DNA from: Verrucomicrobiota bacterium
GTDB lineage: Bacteria > Verrucomicrobiota > Verrucomicrobiia > JAWXBN01
Direction: 5' to 3'
DNA: 52,944 bases
Assembly (NCBI GenBank): GCA_034440155.1
Contig: JAWXBN010000085.1
Location: 1 to 52,944, forward strand
Made by a program: the position numbers and the translations under genes. Of this stretch, positions 10,168 to 21,613 are shown one piece after another. The notes under the pieces are model-generated. The model was not told the DNA's origin and ran no database searches. It was given only the letters and a program-made list of their open reading frames with translations. Numbering within the stretch: position 1 is the first letter of the stretch; each line of letters opens with the position of its first letter.

Positions 10168-12363
10168 ATGAATTTATACTCACACAGCCTTCCAAATACT
10201 TCTCCCGATTACTGGGAAAAGCTGGAGATTCATCTGGATGAAGTAGCATCCTTGGCGGTACAATTTGCGGAAAAGATAGGATCATCTAGTTGGCTTCATA
10301 ATGCTGGCTGGTTACATGATTTAGGGAAGGTGGCTCCAGAGTTTCAGAACTATTTACTCCGAGAAAACGGGTTCGATCCCTCGGAGACCGATGATAGTGT
10401 GGGCGGAAGGATTAACCACTCAAGTGCAGGAGCAGCATTTGCAGAGGAAAAGTTTAATTCTGGTCAACGGCTTTATGGAAGGATTCTTTCCTATATCATT
10501 GCAGGGCATCATGCCGGTTTACCGGATTGGCATCCATCTGATTCAGCAAATGCAGCACTTTTAGTCAGGCTGTCTAATGAGGGGAAAAAGAATATTGATG
10601 CGGTTCGTCACTTGATAGGATTTGTTGACAAGGAGCTAAAACCTGTCAATTCGCTTCCTTGTCATATCACCCGTAAAAATCTGCATTTTTGGATTCGCAT
10701 GATGTTTTCATGTTTGGTTGATGCAGATTTTTTACGAACAGAAGCATTCATGTCGCCAGAACGTTCAGCAGAAAGGCGTAGTTCCGTGGGGCTTAATGAA
10801 CTTAAAGATAAGTTTGATGGTTTCATGAGACAAAAAACGAAGTATGCTCCACAAACAAAAGTTAATCAAATCCGCAAAACAGTATTAGATTCTTGTCGTG
10901 CCGCAGGTTCACAAAAAGCGGGGCTGTTTTCCCTGACTGTGCCGACAGGAGGGGGGAAGACACTTTCGTCGATGGCATTTGCCTTGGAACACGCGACAGT
11001 CCACCAGAACAACAGGATCATATACGTTATTCCCTACACAAGTATTATTGAACAGACAGCTGCTATCCTAGGAGAAATATTCGGATCCGAGAATGTAATT
11101 GAACATCACAGTAATATTAATTCAGATAAGGAAACCCAGCAGAGTAAACTAGCATCAGAGAACTGGGATGCCCCAATTATTGTAACGACGAATGTCCAAT
11201 TCTTCGAGTCTCTTTATGCCGCCAGGCCAAGCCGTTGTAGGAAACTACATAATTTACAAAATAGTATTGTGATACTTGACGAGGCTCAATTACTTCCTCC
11301 TGACTTACTTGGCCCCTGTGTGGATGCCTTGAATGAATTGACCGAAAACTATCAAGCCACAGTACTTTTTGCTACGGCGACACAACCAGCATTACCGGGA
11401 ATAAGTCATGTCCGTGAGATTATTCAGGACTCCGTTAGTATTTATGAGGAGTTGAAGAGAACGGAGATTGTTTTTCCTCAAGATATGAACACGTGCAGTT
11501 CTTGGGATCAAATTGCTGGGGAACTGAGAAAAAAAATCCAAGTGCTCTGTATTGTTAATACAAGGAAGGATTGTAGGACACTCCATGGACTCATGCCCAA
11601 GGGAACCGTACATCTTTCTACGTTGATGTGTGGTGAACATCGTTCGTTCACGATTCGGAAAATTAAGGAAAATCTCAAGACTGGTCAATCCATTCGTGTC
11701 ATCAGCACTCAATTAGTTGAGGCGGGTGTGGACATTGATTTTCCGGTAGTTTACCGGGCTCTGGCAGGATTGGATTCCATTGCGCAGGCTGCTGGGCGTT
11801 GTAATCGCGAAGGCAAACTCAATGATCAAGGGTCGCTAGGGCATGTTCATGTCTTTATCCCTCCTAAAAGCTCACCCCCCGGATTACTTCTTAAGGGGGA
11901 AAATGTGACACGGGAACTCTACTCCATGGGTAATATTGATGCACTTGCCCCTGATTCATACGAACGTTATTTTAAGTTATATTATTCGTCACTCAATGAC
12001 ACTGGGCAGGGTATCCTTAAAGATCTAATCCCCGATAACGATGAACTTGCCATCCCTTTCAGAAGTATAGCGACGAAGTTCCGTTTAATAGATGATAGTG
12101 CTCAACGTACTGTGCTCGTCCCCTACGGTAATGGCAAAGAGTTGATCCATGAACTTAAGATTACTGGTCCATATCATCAACTTCTCAGAAAATTACAACG
12201 CTTTACGATCAATCTTCCCGTCAAGTTGTTTGACAGATTCAAAGCGGCAGGCAGGATTTCTGAAGTTAATGAAGGTTTTTTTATTTGGGAAGGATGGTAT
12301 GATGAGGTTACAGGAGCTGATATTTACGAGGAGGGACCTAGTGATGAAGATTGTATTGTTTAA
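10168..12363 (+). CDS. cas3: CRISPR-associated helicase/nuclease Cas3 (type I-C)
   Basis: A 731-residue Cas3, the effector recruited by Cascade to nick, unwind and degrade invading DNA. The N-terminal HD nuclease has His22, the His50-Asp51 pair in WLHDLGK, His84 and the His114-His115 pair in AGHHAGLPDW. The helicase part has Walker A TGGGKT (260-265), motif II DEAQ (371-374, in place of DEAH/DECH), motif III ATATQP, motif V STQLVEAGVDIDFP and motif VI QAAGRCNREG (540-549). Both activities look intact. It is the first gene of the cas operon; the cas5c start lies 21 bases downstream. The long AT-rich leader before it holds the only promoter-like element I can see for the locus. Confidence 0.96.
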   Translation: MNLYSHSLPNTSPDYWEKLEIHLDEVASLAVQFAEKIGSSSWLHNAGWLHDLGKVAPEFQNYLLRENGFDPSETDDSVGGRINHSSAGAAFAEEKFNSGQRLYGRILSYIIAGHHAGLPDWHPSDSANAALLVRLSNEGKKNIDAVRHLIGFVDKELKPVNSLPCHITRKNLHFWIRMMFSCLVDADFLRTEAFMSPERSAERRSSVGLNELKDKFDGFMRQKTKYAPQTKVNQIRKTVLDSCRAAGSQKAGLFSLTVPTGGGKTLSSMAFALEHATVHQNNRIIYVIPYTSIIEQTAAILGEIFGSENVIEHHSNINSDKETQQSKLASENWDAPIIVTTNVQFFESLYAARPSRCRKLHNLQNSIVILDEAQLLPPDLLGPCVDALNELTENYQATVLFATATQPALPGISHVREIIQDSVSIYEELKRTEIVFPQDMNTCSSWDQIAGELRKKIQVLCIVNTRKDCRTLHGLMPKGTVHLSTLMCGEHRSFTIRKIKENLKTGQSIRVISTQLVEAGVDIDFPVVYRALAGLDSIAQAAGRCNREGKLNDQGSLGHVHVFIPPKSSPPGLLLKGENVTRELYSMGNIDALAPDSYERYFKLYYSSLNDTGQGILKDLIPDNDELAIPFRSIATKFRLIDDSAQRTVLVPYGNGKELIHELKITGPYHQLLRKLQRFTINLPVKLFDRFKAAGRISEVNEGFFIWEGWYDEVTGADIYEEGPSDEDCIV

Positions 12364-12384: not shown

Positions 12385-13080
12385 ATGAAAGGTTTTTGTC
12401 TGGAAGTATGGGGCGACTACGCCTGTTTTACCCGTCCGGAGATGAAGGTGGAACGGGTGAGTTATGATGTAATTACCCCTTCATCTGCTAGGGCTATTTT
12501 TGAAGCGATTCTGTGGAAACCTGCCATTCGCTGGAGGATACAACGCATTGATGTATTGGCTCCCATACGATGGATTTCAGTGCGTCGTAATGAGGTTGGT
12601 AGCGTGATGTCAACTCGTTCAAAAGTAGGTATCTTTATTGAAGAAGACCGTCAGCAAAGAGCTGGACTGTTCCTTCGTGATGTCAAATACCGGTTGTTTG
12701 CTGAATTTGAATTTATCCCTCCAGATAAGAGGGGAAAAGGATTAAATCCCGTTCCCGAATTTCTTCAAGGAGACATCGAAGAGAATAAGATTATTCGCCA
12801 AGATGAAACCCCGGACAAGTATGCATCCATGTTTGAGCGGCGGGCGAGGAAAGGCCAGTGTTTCAATCAGCCCTATCTCGGATGCCGTGAGTTCTCAGCT
12901 TCCTTCCGTTTGGTTGAACCGGGTAGGGAAGCATCTCAGCCTATTTCTGAAACACGCGATTTAGGGTGGATGCTTTATGATTTGGATTATTCTGATCCGA
13001 TTGACCCCAAGCCCCGTTTTTTTCGGGCAGAACTCAAGAACGGTGTGATCGATCTCGATCATGTGGAGGTTAGATCGTGA
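12385..13080 (+). CDS. cas5c: Type I-C Cascade subunit and crRNA endonuclease Cas5c
   Basis: A 231-residue RAMP-fold protein. In type I-C systems, which lack Cas6, Cas5c cuts the pre-crRNA within the repeats and stays on the 5' handle. Recognisable family segments are LEVWGDYACFTRPEMKVERVSYD and TPSSARAIFEAILWKPAIRW near the N-terminus, RQQRAGLFLRDV in the middle, and MFERRARKGQCFNQPYLGCR later. A strong GGAGG lies seven bases before the ATG. Its TGA overlaps the GTG start of the next gene (GTGA at 13077-13080), so translation is probably coupled. The stretch before MFERRA reads DKY, whereas a catalytic His is described there in some homologues; I could not check whether this matters. Confidence 0.94.
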   Translation: MKGFCLEVWGDYACFTRPEMKVERVSYDVITPSSARAIFEAILWKPAIRWRIQRIDVLAPIRWISVRRNEVGSVMSTRSKVGIFIEEDRQQRAGLFLRDVKYRLFAEFEFIPPDKRGKGLNPVPEFLQGDIEENKIIRQDETPDKYASMFERRARKGQCFNQPYLGCREFSASFRLVEPGREASQPISETRDLGWMLYDLDYSDPIDPKPRFFRAELKNGVIDLDHVEVRS

Positions 13081-14267
13081 GCGAACTGCACACATCCTAT
13101 CCGGCACTGCTTGATCAAATTGCACATGTACATCAACAGGCCCAGGTCGGTGCGGCGGGTGCGGTTAACTCTCATCTCATTATCCGCAACTGGCTGATTG
13201 GTGCTTATCTAGTTGAATATGAGCAGAAGGGGGAAGACCGGGCGCGATATGGAGTTCAATTGCTTCAGCATGTTGCTCAGGATTTAAAAATCAGATCTGT
13301 AAATGGGTGTAGTCGCCAAATGTTGGAACGGATGCGGTTGTTCTATGTTGCGTATCCTCAAGTCTCAAAAACGATATCCTCACCGTCGGTGAGCATTTTT
13401 AATAACCCGCTTGTATACAAAGGGTTGCAAATTAGCTGTCCACCGGTGAGCAAAACCGGTTCCCCATCCGATAGGCACCCCTCACCCCTACCACCTGAGA
13501 TGGTTCTTAAATTATCTTGGACGCATCTTGTCGAGCTTCTTGGAGTCGATGATTCATGGGAGAGGGCATTCTACGAGAACGAATGCCTCAAAGGAAATTG
13601 GTCGAAACGCCAACTTCAACGCCAGATTGGATCACTTCTTTACGAGCGGACGGGGCTTTCCTCGGGCAAACAGTCCTTGATTGAACATGCCAGAAATCAG
13701 GCTGCACAAGCCCCTACTCAAGTAGCCGATCTGATCCGAGATCCCTATGTTTTGGAATTCACCGGTCTTTCGGAAAGATCCCACTATCTTGAAAAGGATC
13801 TGGAGAAAGCCCTCCTCGAACATCTTCAAACTTTTCTCTTGGAACTAGGCACGGGTTTCTGTTTTGAGGCCCGCCAGAAACGGATCACTGTGGGTAACAG
13901 TCATGACTATCTGGATATGGTATTTTACCACAGGATTCTCCGTTGCCACCTACTTATTGACCTGAAAACCAGGCCATTTGAACACGGTGATGCAGGACAG
14001 ATGAATTTCTATCTCAACTATTGGAAAGATCAGATGATGGGAGAGGGAGATGGACCTCCGGTTGGACTCTTGCTCTGTACAGCTCGTGACCAGACCAAGG
14101 TCGAATATTCTACTGGAGGGCTTGACCATCAGCTTTTTGTCTCTCGGTATCTGGTCGCCCTTCCTGATCCTCAAAAGCTTCAACAACTCATCGAAACAGA
14201 CCGTGTTGTCTGGGAACAGCATCATACCCCTGACGTCCCTATTTCTAACAACGAGGTAAAACCATGA
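13077..14267 (+). CDS. DUF1016 (YhcG-like) PD-(D/E)xK nuclease inside the cas operon
   Basis: A 396-residue protein of the DUF1016/YhcG family, not a standard Cas protein. The N-terminal DUF1016_N part (about residues 10-95) has VNSHLIIRNWLIGAYLVEYE and SRQMLERMRLFYVAYP. The C-terminal nuclease part (about 215-375) has RDPYVLEFTGLSERSHYLE, LELGTGFCFEARQKRITVG, and the catalytic core Asp280, Asp295-Leu-Lys297 and Gln308 (DYLDMVFYHRILRCHLLIDL, then GQMNFYL). It starts with GTG overlapping the cas5c stop, and its stop overlaps the cas8c ATG (ATGA at 14264-14267). It is therefore embedded in the operon, not dropped into a gap. Family members occur near restriction-modification and other defence genes, and a DNA-cutting or junction-cutting role is predicted. 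Its role here is unknown. Confidence 0.9.
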   Translation: MSELHTSYPALLDQIAHVHQQAQVGAAGAVNSHLIIRNWLIGAYLVEYEQKGEDRARYGVQLLQHVAQDLKIRSVNGCSRQMLERMRLFYVAYPQVSKTISSPSVSIFNNPLVYKGLQISCPPVSKTGSPSDRHPSPLPPEMVLKLSWTHLVELLGVDDSWERAFYENECLKGNWSKRQLQRQIGSLLYERTGLSSGKQSLIEHARNQAAQAPTQVADLIRDPYVLEFTGLSERSHYLEKDLEKALLEHLQTFLLELGTGFCFEARQKRITVGNSHDYLDMVFYHRILRCHLLIDLKTRPFEHGDAGQMNFYLNYWKDQMMGEGDGPPVGLLLCTARDQTKVEYSTGGLDHQLFVSRYLVALPDPQKLQQLIETDRVVWEQHHTPDVPISNNEVKP

Positions 14268-16027
14268 TTCTCCAAGCCCTGAAGGAATATTATGACAGGA
14301 AAGCCGCCGACCCAGACAGTGAGATCGCCCCGATAGGGTTTGAGTGGAAGGAAATTCCCTACATTGTCGTGATTGATTCGACTGGAAAATCGGTCTCGCT
14401 GGCCTGTACATACGAAGGGACGGGTAAGCAAAGAAGGGCAAAACGATTTCTGGTGGCTCAGACAGTTAAACGAACCGCGGGTGTCGCGGGAAACTTTCTT
14501 TGGGATAATCCTGAATATGCACTTGGCATTGATCTGAAAGGAAAGCCGGATCGAGTGGTTTTGCGACATAAGGCGTTTGTTGCTCGAATCAAAGAAATGG
14601 AGACCATTGGAGATGATGGCGTCACGGCTCTTCTGACGTTTTTGGACCAACCAGACAAAAAGGTGGTCATTGAGAGGTTTGATGAAGTAGCTAAACAATT
14701 AATCGAAGAAGGATCCAATGTCTCATTCAGATTAGCTGGCGAGATGGGATTGATTTCAGATAGCCCCAAAGTCCGGGCATTCATTCAAAAATCGGCCTCA
14801 GTATCTGGAACCTCTAAGGTGTGTTGCATGGTTACAGGAGATGTTGATGATTTTCAGGAAACACACCCAGCCATCAAAGGGGTATGGGGTGCGCAGACGT
14901 CCGGTGCCAATATTGTCTCTTTCAATCAATCGGCATTTCGTTCCTTCGGTAAAGAGCAGGCTGGAAACTCACCTGTGGGCAAACAAGCTGTCTTTGCCTA
15001 CACGACCGCTTTGAATGGATTGCTCCATAAGGACTCCAAACAGCGCATGCAAGTCGGAGATGCCTCGACTGTTTTTTGGGCGGAGAAAGAAACCGATTTG
15101 GAATCCCATTTTGTGGACATTTTTGGTGAAGCTGCCAAAGATAATCCTGATGCTGGCGTGAAGGCTGTTGAAGGGCTTTTCAAGGCAATCAATAATGGGG
15201 CCTATGCGGCAAGTGAATCACAGACACGCTTTTATGTTCTCGGGTTGGCACCGAATGCCGCAAGGATCTCTGTCCGGTTTTGGATTGTTGGAACGGCTGG
15301 GGAAATGGCCGGAAAAATAGCCTCCCATTTTAAAGATTTGGAAATTGACCACGGACCCAAGGATAGACCGTATTTCTCTCTTTTTAGATTGCTCGTCTCG
15401 ACAGCTTCCTCGGGTAAATCGGAAAATATTTCCCCGAACCTCAGCGGCGATGTAATGAGAGCTATTTTACAAGGGCTTCCTTATCCTGAAACCCTCCTCC
15501 ACGGGGTTACTCGAAGGATTCGAGCTGAAAGGGAAGTCACTCACATCCGTGCTGCCATCATCAAAGCCTGTATCAATCGAAAAACAAGATTTAACAATCC
15601 ACATGAACCAGAGGAGATCAAAGTGAGTCTCGATATTAAAAATACAAACATCGGTTACCGTCTAGGGCGGCTTTTTGCTACCCTTGAGAAAATCCAGCAA
15701 GAAGCCAGTCCGGGTATCAACGCCACGATCCGCGATAAATTTTATGGGGCGGCATCGGGTTCCCCTGTTACCGTTTTCGGCAATTTAATGCGATTAAAAA
15801 ACCATCACCTTGCCAAACTTGAAAACCAGGGAAGAAGAGTAAATTTGGAACGTCTCCTCGGCGAAATTATGGATGAGATCGGCGATTTCCCTGCTCATTT
15901 GCCTATTGGTGACCAAGGGCGATTTTCAATTGGTTACTACCACCAGATGCAATCGTTTTACACAAAGAAAACTGAAGAACAAAAAAAATTAAACATCAAC
16001 GAAAGAATCCATGATGAATCCGATTAA
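14264..16027 (+). CDS. cas8c: Type I-C Cascade large subunit Cas8c (Csd1)
   Basis: A 587-residue Csd1/Cas8c protein, the subunit that recognises the PAM and holds the R-loop in type I-C Cascade; in this subtype the same gene also yields a small C-terminal Cas11-like product in studied cases. Family stretches include [12 protein letters not shown] at the start, [11 protein letters not shown] near residue 80, and the mid-protein [20 protein letters not shown], followed by [20 protein letters not shown]. The C-terminus contains [17 protein letters not shown]. Length is normal for the family. Its ATG overlaps the stop of the DUF1016 gene, and its 3' end overlaps cas7c by 17 bases. I did not identify an internal Cas11 start with confidence. 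Confidence 0.94.
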
Positions 16028-16871
16028 AAACCGATATGACTTTGTACTTATTTTTGACGTCCTAGACGGTAATCCCAATGGCGATCCAGATGCAGGCAAC
16101 TTACCCCGGCTCGACCCCGAAACAGGTTGTGGTCTGGTCACGGATGTCTGCCTGAAGCGAAAGATCAGGAACTATGTTCAAATCACCAAAGGACTCTCTT
16201 CACCATTCGATATATTTGTAAAAGAGAAGGCTGTGTTGAATAAACTCATAGATGAAGCCCATGAGCAAGAAAGTGTAAAATCTAAAGAAAAGGGTGAAAA
16301 AACAGAAGAGGCAAGAAAATGGATGTGTTCAAAATATTTTGACATCCGCACCTTTGGTGCAGTCTTGAGCACAGGAAAAAATGCTGGTCAAGTCCGCGGT
16401 CCAGTCCAGCTTACATTTGCACGATCAGTCGATCCGATTGTCACTTTGGAGCATTCGATCACTCGTATGGCTGTCGCGACCGAAGCGGAGGCTGAGAAAC
16501 AAGGTGGTGACAACCGGACAATGGGACGCAAAAACACCGTTCCTTATGGTGTCTATGTCGGCCATGGGTTCATCTCGGCTCATCTTGCGGCACAAACCGG
16601 ATTTACGGAAGATGATCTTAATCTTTTATGGGAAGCACTGAAAAACATGTTTGAACACGACCGCTCGGCGGCACGAGGGACAATGTCGATGCAGAAATTG
16701 GTTGTTTTTAAACATGATACAGCCCTTGGGAATGCGCCTGCGCACGAACTTTTCAAAAGGGTAAGCTTGAAAAAGAAAGATTTAGAAAAACCGGCCCGTT
16801 CCTTTGATGATTATGACTGTTCAGTAGATGAGCAGGGACTCCCATCTGGTATTACCATTGAGTCCATCTAA
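16011..16871 (+). CDS. cas7c: Type I-C Cascade backbone subunit Cas7c (Csd2)
   Basis: A 286-residue RAMP protein that forms the helical backbone along the crRNA. The N-terminal [20 protein letters not shown] followed by [11 protein letters not shown] is the Csd2 signature. [21 protein letters not shown] and [14 protein letters not shown], followed by [20 protein letters not shown], are also characteristic. Length is normal. The start lies inside the end of cas8c; ATGATG allows initiation at 16011 or 16014. The 12-base gap to the GTG of cas4 keeps it within one transcription unit. Confidence 0.95.
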
Positions 16872-16883
16872 ATAGGATTAGAA

Positions 16884-17534
16884 GTGCTTAAAGTCATGGA
16901 ACAAGAACAATCTATTCCCCTTTCGGCACTCCAGCATCATCTTTTTTGTCCGAGGCAGTCTGCGTTAATCCATCTGGAGCGGCTCTGGCAGGAGAACCGT
17001 TTTACGATGGAGGGAAGGGTTTTACACGAGACAGCCCATGACCCTTCTGCTTCAGGAACGGATGGTAAAGGCGTTCGATTGGCGAGGGGATTATCCCTGT
17101 CTTCAACCCGGCTAGGGCTTTACGGTGTTGCTGATGTGGTGGAGTTCCATCCGGATGGGAGGGTGGTTCCTGTGGAATATAAGCGGGGTAAACCGAAGGA
17201 GCATGACGCAGACCGGATACAGCTCTGTGCCCAAGCATTTTGCCTCGAGGAAATGCTCTCGGTAGAAATTCCTTTGGGTTTTCTCTTTTATGGCCAGAAC
17301 CGGAGAAGGGAGGAGGTTTCTTTGGATGGCACACTCCGGGAACACACGGAGCAAATTGCAGCAGATTTGAGGGCAATGCTTAAATCCGGGGTAACTCCCA
17401 AGGCGGTACGTGAGCCGAAATGTGATAGTTGCTCTCTGATAGACCTTTGTTTGCCGGAGGCTATGAGATACCAGAGTGTCAGGGAATACAACAACCGGCT
17501 TTTTGACCATTTAAATGAGAATGATCCATCATGA
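16884..17534 (+). CDS. cas4: CRISPR adaptation exonuclease Cas4
   Basis: A 216-residue Cas4, a RecB-type nuclease with an iron-sulphur cluster that trims prespacers and checks the PAM before integration by Cas1-Cas2. Cluster cysteines are Cys22 (FCPRQ), Cys180, Cys183 and Cys189 (CDSCSLIDLC). Nuclease residues are His49, Asp84 in GVADVVEF and Glu98-Tyr-Lys100. The annotated start is GTG at 16884; an ATG four codons later (16896) is possible. Its stop overlaps the cas1 start (ATGA at 17531-17534). It carries the only exact GCAAWTTGC copy in the CRISPR-Cas region (17351-17359). Confidence 0.94.
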   Translation: MLKVMEQEQSIPLSALQHHLFCPRQSALIHLERLWQENRFTMEGRVLHETAHDPSASGTDGKGVRLARGLSLSSTRLGLYGVADVVEFHPDGRVVPVEYKRGKPKEHDADRIQLCAQAFCLEEMLSVEIPLGFLFYGQNRRREEVSLDGTLREHTEQIAADLRAMLKSGVTPKAVREPKCDSCSLIDLCLPEAMRYQSVREYNNRLFDHLNENDPS

Positions 17535-18556
17535 AAACACATCTCAATAGCCTTTATGTGACATTGGAAGGATCGTGGTTAACCAAAGATGGTCAAGCAG
17601 TGGATATACGTCATGAAAAACAATCAAAATTAAGGGTTCCTCTCCATAATCTCGAAAGCATTGTATGTTTGGGTTATGACATCGGGATGAGTCCCCAACT
17701 AATGGGTGCTTGTGCTGAAGCGGGTATAACGGTCTCATTTCTGTCTCCGAACGGGAAGTTTATGGCGTCAGTGCACGGGCCGACAAAGGGAAATGTCCTG
17801 CTGAGACGTCAGCAATATAGAAAAGCGGATGACGAAGAGGCTTGTCTATTGATTGCCAAGGAGAATATTGCCGCAAAAATTGCCAACGGTAGAACTGTCC
17901 TGCTTCGAGCAATACGCGACCATGGAGCCGATGATCTATTGGAACAAAAAAGTCTGGCTTTAGCCCGATCTGTGGATGAAGCCCGGAGAACCAACTCTCT
18001 GGATGCGTTGAGAGGAATCGAGGGGGATGCGGCTTCTTCTTATTTCCAAGCTTTTCCCCGGCTTATTCGCTCCGATGAACCGTCTTTTGTTTTTAAAGAC
18101 AGGAACCGTCGTCCACCACTGGATCCGGTTAATGCACTGCTATCCTATCTTTACACGATTTTAGCGCATGATGCTCGTTCGGCTTGCGAATCTGTAGGGT
18201 TGGATTCATCTGTAGGATTTCTCCACCGGGATCGTCCTGGGCGCCCTTCTTTGGCTTTGGATCTCATGGAGGAGTTCAGACCTGTTTTGGCAGATCGGTT
18301 AGTGCTGTCTTTGATTAATCGGCAACAAATCAAACGCACAGACTTCAAAACAAGGGAGTCGGGTGCAGTGGAAATGTCTGATGAAACACGGAAAGCTATT
18401 CTTGCTGCTTACCAAGAAAGGAAGCGGGATGAGGTTCACCACCCATTTCTCAATGAAAAGGTAACAGTGGGTCTACTTCTTCTCTTACAAGCCCGTCTAC
18501 TTGCCCGTCATATCAGGGGTGACTTGGATGCTTATCCACCTTATATCTGGAAATAA
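17531..18556 (+). CDS. cas1: CRISPR integrase Cas1 (type I-C)
   Basis: A 341-residue Cas1, the catalytic subunit of the spacer integrase. The metal-binding residues are visible: Glu164 in RGIEGDAASSYF, His232 in VGFLHRDRPGRPSLALDL, and Asp244 in the same segment. The N-terminal NSLYVTLEGSWLTKDGQAVD and the DPVNALLSYLYTIL helix are typical of the I-C clade. The start overlaps the cas4 stop. Cas2 follows after six bases. All three adaptation genes are intact, so the array can probably still grow. Confidence 0.96.
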   Translation: MKTHLNSLYVTLEGSWLTKDGQAVDIRHEKQSKLRVPLHNLESIVCLGYDIGMSPQLMGACAEAGITVSFLSPNGKFMASVHGPTKGNVLLRRQQYRKADDEEACLLIAKENIAAKIANGRTVLLRAIRDHGADDLLEQKSLALARSVDEARRTNSLDALRGIEGDAASSYFQAFPRLIRSDEPSFVFKDRNRRPPLDPVNALLSYLYTILAHDARSACESVGLDSSVGFLHRDRPGRPSLALDLMEEFRPVLADRLVLSLINRQQIKRTDFKTRESGAVEMSDETRKAILAAYQERKRDEVHHPFLNEKVTVGLLLLLQARLLARHIRGDLDAYPPYIWK

Positions 18557-18562
18557 TCATTT

Positions 18563-18853
18563 ATGTATATTTTGGTCACTTATGATGTCGCCACCTCCGA
18601 TGAGGGAGGTGCTCGCCGATTACGCCGTGTCGCTAAAATTTGCCTTGATTACGGTCAGCGTGTTCAAAATTCAGTTTTTGAATGTAAACTTGACCCCGCC
18701 AAGTTTATTGAACTTAAAAGTCGTCTGACATCCGAAATAAATGATAAAAAGGATAGCCTGCGCTTCTATCACCTCGGCAATAACTGGGAACAAAGAATCG
18801 ACCACATCGGAGCAAAACAATCCTATAATATTAATGGCCCGTTAATCCTTTAA
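18563..18853 (+). CDS. cas2: CRISPR integrase structural subunit Cas2
   Basis: A 96-residue Cas2 with the ferredoxin-like fold start MYILVTYDVATSDEGGARRL, including the conserved Asp8, and a central RVQNSVFECKL strand. It bridges two Cas1 dimers in the integration complex. Six bases separate it from cas1. It is the last cas gene; the CRISPR leader follows immediately. Confidence 0.95.
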   Translation: MYILVTYDVATSDEGGARRLRRVAKICLDYGQRVQNSVFECKLDPAKFIELKSRLTSEINDKKDSLRFYHLGNNWEQRIDHIGAKQSYNINGPLIL

Positions 18854-19038
18854 ATCTTTTCCGCGAACCCCTAACGATGGATATGTTCCCCTAAAGGTTC
18901 GCGCTAGGTATAAAGCATTTTCTATCAGTTCTTTGAAAACTTTATCAAGGGTATTTTAAGATATTGCCTAGCCCATAATGTCAGGTTCGCGGAATAACCC
19001 TTCTTTACTGTTGTTATTAAGTGAGTTAGTTTCTGACC
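18854..19038 (+). promoter_or_regulatory. CRISPR leader with long-range inverted repeat
   Basis: A 185-base AT-rich stretch between cas2 and the first repeat, in the expected leader position for a type I-C array whose repeats end in ATTGAAAC on this strand. It contains TTCCGCGAACC (18859-18869) and its exact reverse complement GGTTCGCGGAA (18984-18994), plus a third partial copy, GGTTCGCG, at 18896-18903. It should hold the array promoter and the integration anchoring sites, although I see no strong -35/-10 pair. Leader function is inferred from position. Confidence 0.75.
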
Positions 19039-20267
19039 GTCGCGCCCCACACGGGGCGCGTGGATTGAAACTCAATGCTGCTAGGTAAAAAACTCCGGCT
19101 GTCAGTCGCGCCCCACACGGGGCGCGTGGATTGAAACGGCAATGAGATAGACTAGACTAGTTATCCCGGGCGTCGCGCCCCACACGGGGCGCGTGGATTG
19201 AAACTATGCAGCTAAATATTGCGCTAAACTTGGAGATGTCGCGCCCCACACGGGGCGCGTGGATTGAAACTCCCCTACCCAGTTTCCCCCACCCATAGAT
19301 GCAGTCGCGCCCCACACGGGGCGCGTGGATTGAAACGCGCAAGTCGCCGATGCCAATAATGCAACGGCTGTCGCGCCCCACACGGGGCGCGTGGATTGAA
19401 ACACTTAATTGCATATTTTCCTTTTGTTTGGTTTAGTCGCGCCCCACACGGGGCGCGTGGATTGAAACATCAGGTTGCACATCGGGGAGCTCCGTGATGA
19501 GGTCGCGCCCCACACGGGGCGCGTGGATTGAAACGCCGTTGCGCAGGGAGTCTAAGCAACTTTCGGGGTCGCGCCCCACACGGGGCGCGTGGATTGAAAC
19601 CATTTTTTTCCTTTAGAAACACCCTCTAGGTTGAGTCGCGCCCCACACGGGGCGCGTGGATTGAAACAGTAGATTTCCCAGCCTGTCCGAGATTAAGTCC
19701 GTCGCGCCCCACACGGGGCGCGTGGATTGAAACTATTTTATAGTTTTCCACTAAGACCAATGGACGTGTCGCGCCCCACACGGGGCGCGTGGATTGAAAC
19801 CTCTTGCTGACTACTCCAGGCCGTAGGGGCCTCCGGTCGCGCCCCACACGGGGCGCGTGGATTGAAACTTTCTAACGACTCCTAGCTTGTTAGGAGTGAA
19901 TAGTCGCGCCCCACACGGGGCGCGTGGATTGAAACGCAGCGTTACACAGGACTACACGTATCTGCGCAAGTCGCGCCCCACACGGGGCGCGTGGATTGAA
20001 ACTGCACTCTCATCTTGAGCAAAGCGCCTGCCTCTAGTCGCGCCCCACACGGGGCGCGTGGATTGAAACTTTTTTCATAAGTTCCCACTGACGCTCGGCT
20101 AGTCGCGCCCCACACGGGGCGCGTGGATTGAAACGCGGGAATGGCTATTGTTAAGGGCAAAATCGTCGTCGCGCCCCACACGGGGCGCGTGGATTGAAAC
20201 TGCACTCTCAGCTTGAGCAAAGCGCCTGCCTCTTGTCGCGCCCCACACGGGGCGCGTGGATTGAAAC
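19039..20267 (+). CRISPR. Type I-C CRISPR array, 19 repeats and 18 spacers
   Basis: Nineteen identical 33-base repeats begin GTCGCGCCCC and end GTGGATTGAAAC. Each holds an 8-bp stem (CGCGCCCC / GGGGCGCG) with an ACAC loop, the type I-C repeat architecture. Repeat starts are 19039, 19105, 19172, 19238, 19304, 19370, 19436, 19502, 19568, 19635, 19701, 19768, 19836, 19903, 19970, 20037, 20102, 20168 and 20235. Spacers are 32-35 bases. No decayed repeat was seen at either end, so the array looks active. Spacers 15 (20003-20036) and 18 (20201-20234) differ at only two positions. Leader-proximal spacers should be the newest. I found no spacer match to other parts of this window by eye. Confidence 0.98.
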
Positions 20268-20380: not shown

Positions 20381-21613
20381 TTAGCGTTTCTTAATGATAC
20401 AATAAATGCCTATGACAGAAAAGATCACCACTGCTGCCCAAGCGCCCACGGAGGGGAAAATACGACTGCCTTTGCCGAGGGCGAGGGAGAAATTCGTCAC
20501 AAAAAAGAAGGAAATAAAGAGGATAAAAGGATAGGCGATGCCAGCGATCGGATCACGTTTGGTCACACTGGCAGCAAAAGGAATCGTAAATAAGGCGATG
20601 GCCAAACACCAAAATGGCATAGCATAACGGTAATAAAGCATCGTGAAATAGGGAGCCAAACGGGATGAACGGTAGCTTTTATTCTGAGCGATATAATCCC
20701 GGATTTCATTTGAGGTCATGCCTTCGATATCCTTGTTGTTACTGGCGAGCATCTGGCGGGGGGTCTCGATAAATTCCGAGTAATTTCGGGCAGGGATATT
20801 CTCGGCACGGGCCTCCCCTTTTTGCTCATCGAAATAAATCTCCCGGATATCATAAAGCTGCCATTCATTATTCACATAAGCCGCCTTACGGGCGTAAATT
20901 TTGCGGATATCACGGCCTTCCGCGTCCTGCTCGGTGATTTCCACGTCCTCGGCTGTGGTCCGGGTGACATTAAACATTTTGATATACCAGAAACGGAACT
21001 GGCTACCTTGGAAATATTGGACCTTGCGCCGGATCAGGTCCCCGGCGTCATTCCTCTCCCCTTGGATCAGCATCTGCCGACTCCGGTCGGTATAATCCGC
21101 CGTCGTATTCCGGTTCATCAAAAGTAATAACCCAGAAGCTGCTAAAGTCATCAGGATCATCGGGGCGGCAATCCGCTCCATGGCTATCCCGCAAGCACGC
21201 ATGGCCACAATCTCATTATTTTTTGCCAGCGTGACTAAAGTGTAAATCAGGGAAACCAGCAGGGAAACCGGCACCATATACATGAGAAGATAGGGAAGAT
21301 TCAAGAATAGGTATGACACCGTCTGGCCAAAAGTCAGACCGATTTTGACAATATCCTCGAGCTCACTCATCAGTATCTGAATGGTGAACATAAAGATCAT
21401 GGCCGCTAAAACCATCAACCAACTCATGCAGAACTCGCGTAATACGTGAAAATCCAATATCTGGGGCCGCCAATAAACCCAAGCTTTCCGGCTGGAATCA
21501 GGTTTTAAGTGTAACCACCGGTCAATCTTCGAGGCCGATTGTCCGGACTCCCCTCTGGAAAGGGCCTCCGGGACATCCTCCCCGATATCTCTATGCTCGT
21601 TGTTATGATCCAT
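20381..21613 (-). CDS. LptF/LptG family LPS-export permease
   Basis: A 410-residue inner-membrane protein of the YjgP/YjgQ (LptF/LptG) family. These proteins form the permease of the ABC transporter that extracts lipopolysaccharide and pushes it to the outer membrane. The pattern is typical: two membrane helices near residues 65-130, the conserved cytoplasmic loop AKNNEIVAMRACGIAMERI, a large periplasmic domain, and three helices at the C-terminus ending GIYCIIKKR. The first 50 residues are a charged extension not usual for the family. Whether it is LptF or LptG cannot be decided from sequence alone, and the partner is not in the window. It is divergent from gmhA, with 105 bases between starts. 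Confidence 0.85.
   Translation of the reverse strand: MDHNNEHRDIGEDVPEALSRGESGQSASKIDRWLHLKPDSSRKAWVYWRPQILDFHVLREFCMSWLMVLAAMIFMFTIQILMSELEDIVKIGLTFGQTVSYLFLNLPYLLMYMVPVSLLVSLIYTLVTLAKNNEIVAMRACGIAMERIAAPMILMTLAASGLLLLMNRNTTADYTDRSRQMLIQGERNDAGDLIRRKVQYFQGSQFRFWYIKMFNVTRTTAEDVEITEQDAEGRDIRKIYARKAAYVNNEWQLYDIREIYFDEQKGEARAENIPARNYSEFIETPRQMLASNNKDIEGMTSNEIRDYIAQNKSYRSSRLAPYFTMLYYRYAMPFWCLAIALFTIPFAASVTKRDPIAGIAYPFILFISFFFVTNFSLALGKGSRIFPSVGAWAAVVIFSVIGIYCIIKKR

Follow-up and report, generated by a model that had tools for sequence, protein, structure and literature searches.

The window analysed here is the whole stretch of 52,944 nucleotides at positions 1 to 52,944 of contig JAWXBN010000085.1 (assembly GCA_034440155.1) from a Verrucomicrobiota bacterium, and it carries a CRISPR-Cas locus on its forward strand. 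The first gene, cas3 with HD and helicase domains (10168-12363), scored above the cut-offs of NCBIfam TIGR01587 and TIGR01596 and was called Cas3c by PADLOC. It is followed by cas5c (12385-13080; TIGR01876, 226.7 bits), cas8c or Csd1 (14264-16027; TIGR01863, 598.9 bits) and cas7 or Csd2 (16011-16871; TIGR02589, 408.2 bits), all likewise above their cut-offs, which makes the effector part one of type I-C. The adaptation genes cas4 (16884-17534; TIGR00372, 140 bits), cas1c (17531-18556; TIGR03640, 498.7 bits against a cut-off of 385) and cas2 (18563-18853; TIGR01573, 71.2 bits) adjoin an array at 19039-20267 whose repeats end in GTGGATTGAAAC, an ending typical of type I-C, and the array was assigned to this subtype. 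The interval from cas2 to the first repeat (18854-19038), A+T-rich by eye, is the probable leader, judged by its position and sequence. Beyond the distal end of the array lies an LptF/LptG gene on the opposite strand (20381-21613).

The operon also contains a gene for a DUF1016/YhcG PDDEXK nuclease (13077-14267, forward strand), which was recognized by PF06250 and PF17761 and by PADLOC as PDC-S02 and had no NCBIfam match. It lies between cas5c and cas8c and overlaps each of them by 4 bases. In the 19 comparison loci that have both neighbours, no DUF1016 gene was found at this place, the gap between cas5c and cas8c measuring 0-54 bases in 18 of them and 277 bases in L122. Relatives at an E value of 1e-40 or better are present in 73 of 288 genomes of the phylum, own genome included, and 30 DUF1016 loci, one of them the window's own, were fetched. 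The two nearest of the 29 other relatives (64% and 69% identical) also adjoin I-C genes, with the same order cas3-cas5c-DUF1016-cas8c in L195 and a position beside cas3 in L194. Around the other 27, within about 1.5 kb on each side, no homologue of the seven window proteins (six Cas proteins and DUF1016) was detected besides DUF1016 itself. Residues D295 and K297, which we take to be the D-x-K of the PDDEXK motif, are conserved in all three DUF1016 proteins found with I-C genes. In a literature search for DUF1016 together with CRISPR, neither term appeared in the title or abstract of any match. A DUF1016 nuclease gene inside a cas operon is perhaps more surprising than the spacer pair described below and may merit a study of its own.

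The array consists of 19 repeats of 33 nt, all identical, and 18 spacers of 32-35 nt. Its repeat was present, at up to 3 mismatches, in 1 of the 56 other genomes searched; the relatives listed were from the same class, none of them from the same genus or family. As originally predicted, spacers 15 (20003-20036) and 18 (20201-20234), both 34 nt long, are nearly the same: they agree at 32 of 34 positions and differ at position 11 (T/G) and position 34 (A/T). They are the sole alike pair among the 18 spacers, with a local alignment score of 31 compared to 9 for the runner-up on either strand. Allowing up to 3 mismatches over the first 33 positions, the only matches in the window, and likewise in the 2.76-Mb draft genome, were spacers 15 and 18 themselves, and for the window 100 shuffles gave a mean of 0.00. 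Comparison of all 18 spacers with the remainder of the window gave at best 21 matching positions, which we take as chance. Positions 1-10 of the two spacers are identical, which gives them a common start at the PAM end, i.e. the 5' end of the spacer. Spacers 16 (20070-20101) and 17 (20135-20167), which stand between the two copies, are unrelated to either; the original prediction had called both these spacers and the repeats unrelated, and for the repeats, all 19 of them identical, this is wrong.

Spacer 18 is the final spacer of the array, followed by a terminal repeat (20235-20267) that is undamaged and the same as the other 18. Since the probable leader lies between the end of cas2 at 18853 and the first repeat at 19039, spacer 18 should be the older copy and spacer 15 the newer one, provided that insertion occurs at the leader end. 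The predicted age order, with the copy farther from the leader as the older, thus follows from array polarity under the same assumption.

Both spacers were searched for outside the array. Positions 1-33, written with K at position 11, gave no exact match in viral contigs, and neither did three degenerate patterns in which every third position was left free, one for each reading phase. The 26-nt core of the spacers had no exact match in genome contigs. In blastn searches against phage and plasmid records, spacers 15 and 18 hit no protospacer; the lowest E value was 0.1 (23 bases), the longest match, with an E value of 1, was 84.8% identical over 97% of spacer 18, and all record matches were read as chance. 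Across 387 genomes of the phylum, own genome included, only the window matched at 3 mismatches, and no protospacer was seen. Spacer 17 over its full length and spacer 16 over 28 of its 32 bases likewise lacked exact viral matches. The check proposed with the original prediction, namely to find both protospacers next to the same PAM, therefore came back empty from viral, phage, plasmid and genome searches and gave no answer.

Given the two mismatches and the unrelated neighbours, the pair is not an exact copy, and in-array duplication without further change does not account for it. Ends that are impossible for a copy, i.e. a different length or a shifted start, would suffice to identify separate captures but are not required for them; here, both spacers have 34 nt. 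The original prediction had argued that the pair is not a simple array duplication. This argument was too strong, because the same order results when a block is copied and a deletion between identical repeats later shortens the array end. Such a history would start with unequal recombination at the repeats that duplicates a block, for example an ancestor of spacer 18 together with spacers 16 and 17, and would continue with a distal deletion and two substitutions in one or both copies. Any two of the identical repeats can recombine, the common start, equal length and short distance fit, and the intact terminal repeat agrees with a renewed array end, though this is a common feature: of the 72 arrays of the first survey that were fetched up to their end, 33 have it as well. 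In a published application of SpacerPlacer (PMC11472070), 695 of 805 duplicate candidates fell into the class of duplications, with only 8 reacquisitions and 7 independent insertions. That work resembles ours in dealing with repeated spacers in one array and in having reacquisition among its event classes; it differs in that most of its candidates are in-array duplications and that it uses groups of related arrays, whereas the window array stands alone. Because duplications dominate the candidates reported there for CRISPRCasdb, copying with later drift stays alive as an explanation, although it demands two rearrangements plus two mutations within one 34-base pair and none in 627 repeat bases. 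For the latter comparison, the 627 repeat bases (19 x 33) contained 0 substitutions and the 68 bases of spacers 15 and 18 contained 2 differences. The chance of such a result is 0.010 at equal rates; it rises to 0.07 with a repeat rate of 0.3 times the spacer rate and to 0.27 with 0.1 times. That the repeats are identical is weak evidence against a copied unit having drifted slowly, and it is weakened further in that selection or gene conversion may preserve their identity.

In order to see how such pairs look elsewhere, we surveyed I-C-like arrays. A first set of at least 120 stretches of genome contigs, chosen for sharing the repeat stem, yielded 101 arrays with 1,794 spacers. Relatives contributed a further 56 stretches to the enlarged set. 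All but one of these lie at Cas1c genes, namely at 55 of the 75 other Cas1c places over the cut-off, the 20 with little downstream contig being omitted. The resulting 155 arrays were reduced to 148 by redundancy removal and to 146, with 3,055 spacers, by dropping 2 that were not I-C-like. The arrays end in GGATTGAAAC in 132 of 146 cases, the first set having been chosen by that very ending. Spacer boundaries were shifted by the script in at least 4 arrays, and pairs that differ by indels, of which L123 holds 6, were left uncounted.

Matching spacers were found in 92 of 65,486 pairs within arrays and in 7 of 4,599,499 pairs between arrays, and since the former rate is far above the latter, nearly all within-array matches are not due to chance. 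On the same strand and with the same start, 54 exact pairs had equal lengths and 14 were exact over their common part but differed in length; 14 further pairs carried 1-6 mismatches, 6 of them with equal and 8 with different lengths. The remaining pairs comprised 6 with a shifted start and 4 on opposite strands. The opposite-strand pairs (spacers 4/5 of L118 and 34/89, 50/111 and 79/101 of L079, with 0, 0, 4 and 6 mismatches, respectively) have starts shifted by 1-3 bases, as expected for flipped insertion of the same fragment. In a single array, L181, we counted 25 exact equal-length pairs, i.e. 25 of the survey's 54; this looks like a large block duplication, to judge from pooled distances that peak at 21, or an assembly repeat.

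Simple copying does not yield pairs of different length, and the lengths of the mismatched pairs can therefore be compared with what copying and separate capture predict. One of the 14 mismatched pairs was dropped from this follow-up as a member of a family already counted, which left 13 pairs, 5 of equal and 8 of different length. If they were drifted copies, all 13 should have equal lengths. Two random spacers of one array have equal lengths with a probability of 0.343, so that separate capture predicts about 4.5 of 13, and the 5 seen are well within this expectation (P(>=5) = 0.48). Simple scaling from the 8 different-length pairs leads to about 4.2 equal-length separate captures compared to the 5 observed. 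Among pairs with at least 2 mismatches, as in the window, 4 had different lengths and 1 had equal lengths. In-array copies exist, as seen from 54 equal-length versus 14 different-length exact pairs, but they seldom show substitutions: the equal-length pairs are 54 exact versus 6 mismatched. Because the mismatched pairs show the length spread of separate captures, the window pair most likely belongs to the class of recaptured spacers, small as the survey counts are, with only 3 of the 14 mismatched pairs coming from the enlargement. With regard to spacing, a distance of 3 was held by 8 of the 54 exact pairs, and the mismatched pairs were 2 to 71 apart, with 0 of 14 at a distance of 3.

Among arrays with 10 or more spacers (83 in all), a same-start pair is present in 29, an inexact one in 14, and a pair of different length or shifted start in 16. 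Repeated capture of one site from its PAM end is therefore no rarity in I-C arrays. The types of pair seen in the survey have a possible basis in experiments on acquisition by the type I-F system of Pectobacterium, for which inaccurate PAM-distal cutting, slipping and flipping were described (PMC5059440). These processes would explain the same-start pairs of different length, the shifted starts and the opposite-strand pairs; the differences are that this work is experimental and concerns type I-F, and that the window pair is equal in length.

Taking these results together, we consider it probable, from the comparison of arrays, that one PAM-anchored protospacer was captured on two separate occasions, from two variants of the same element, first as spacer 18 and later as spacer 15. 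The separate acquisition put forward in the original prediction is thereby the better-supported cause, on account of the survey lengths, and it is unproven, as neither protospacer nor PAM was found. Also against it count the equal length of the two spacers and their distance of only 3. Copying followed by drift, with the length spread of the mismatched survey pairs as evidence against it, appears unlikely to us. Less probable still is an artefact of assembly or a mixture of strains, by which the contig would join the arrays of two strains that each have one version of the spacer; the draft genome consists of 132 contigs and, by our own reasoning, identical 33-nt repeats invite wrong joins at short k-mers, but the longest exact stretch common to the two units is 43 bases (the repeat plus 10), so that longer k-mers separate them.

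TTC, on the 5' side, is the triplet expected as the PAM in type I-C, to judge from the downstream PAM 5'-GAA-3' given in PMC5071653. Inside the spacers of the first set, it occurred 693 times compared to 868 expected, the third lowest value of any triplet, and GAA occurred 918 times compared to 973; since CCC and CTA are lower still, we make no claim of triplet avoidance inside spacers. TTC and GAA are both absent from spacers 15 and 18. Inner PAM triplets were reported to lower capture during priming in E. coli (PMC6282206), and on this matter one pair proves nothing.

The original prediction had further proposed that the two element variants had escaped or drifted. The I-C seed has been described as positions 1-5, 7 and 8 (PMC5071653), and the differences at positions 11 and 34 both lie outside of it. 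Escape as the cause of the window pair is therefore unsupported and drift fits better; because neither difference is in the seed, spacer 18 probably still recognized the later variant. In the survey, 12 of 25 mismatches fell into the seed compared to 5.1 expected (binomial p 0.002, mismatches treated as independent); counted by pairs, 8 of 13 had at least one seed mismatch compared to 4.4 expected (permutation p 0.029). The first 8 positions held 13 mismatches and the last 8 held 3 (p 0.02), where detection by shared 12-mers favours mismatches near either end when several are present, and among single-mismatch pairs 4 of 8 had theirs in the seed (p 0.06). The excess was noticed in the first set and tested on the enlarged set that contains it, the 3 new pairs having mismatches at positions 7, 12 and 1. 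The enrichment is only suggestive of recaptured pairs often recording escape. The window pair resembles the alternative case, in which a drifted variant was still recognized.

The closest known case is the I-C array of Legionella pneumophila Toronto-2005 (ST222), in which two spacer pairs lie on overlapping regions of the mobile element LME-1 and for which renewed capture is the reading proposed by the authors (PMC5071653). The subtype is the same, and in both cases two spacers of different age in one strain point to one region of an element. The Legionella pairs concern a known element and overlapping regions of it, and a weakness in PAM or seed affects their older spacer; in the window pair, by contrast, the site is the same, the differences are outside the seed and the element is a presumed one.

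On the reading of separate captures, Cas4-Cas1-Cas2 would have taken up the same PAM-anchored protospacer twice, either from two variants of an element or from two close relatives. Of these, the earlier capture would be the present spacer 18; the next surviving captures would be spacers 17 and 16, and spacer 15 would have followed. The PAM end would set the common start, and the ruler would give the same length of 34 nt by ordinary chance. The differences at positions 11 and 34 would be polymorphisms of the mobile element. Recognition of the later variant by spacer 18 could itself have driven the renewed capture, by targeted or primed adaptation.

The pair is thus best regarded as a real but ordinary feature of a known kind, left by more than one encounter with the same element. 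As a tentative proposal, which we hold to be possible rather than likely, near-identical I-C pairs could be read as a record of how a host repeatedly met evolving elements, even ones that are unidentified. The seed crowding in the survey would then look as if escape mutants had been recaptured, and the window pair would represent a contrasting class, the targeting-driven recapture of a drifted but still recognized variant, with spacers 16 and 17 perhaps stemming from the same element and the same episode. The survey offers a yardstick that comes from arrays alone, in that the spread of lengths separates recapture from copying, and the location of mismatches may separate escape from neutral drift in the same way. 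With more arrays, host-virus arms races may become readable in uncultured microbes whose viruses were never sequenced.
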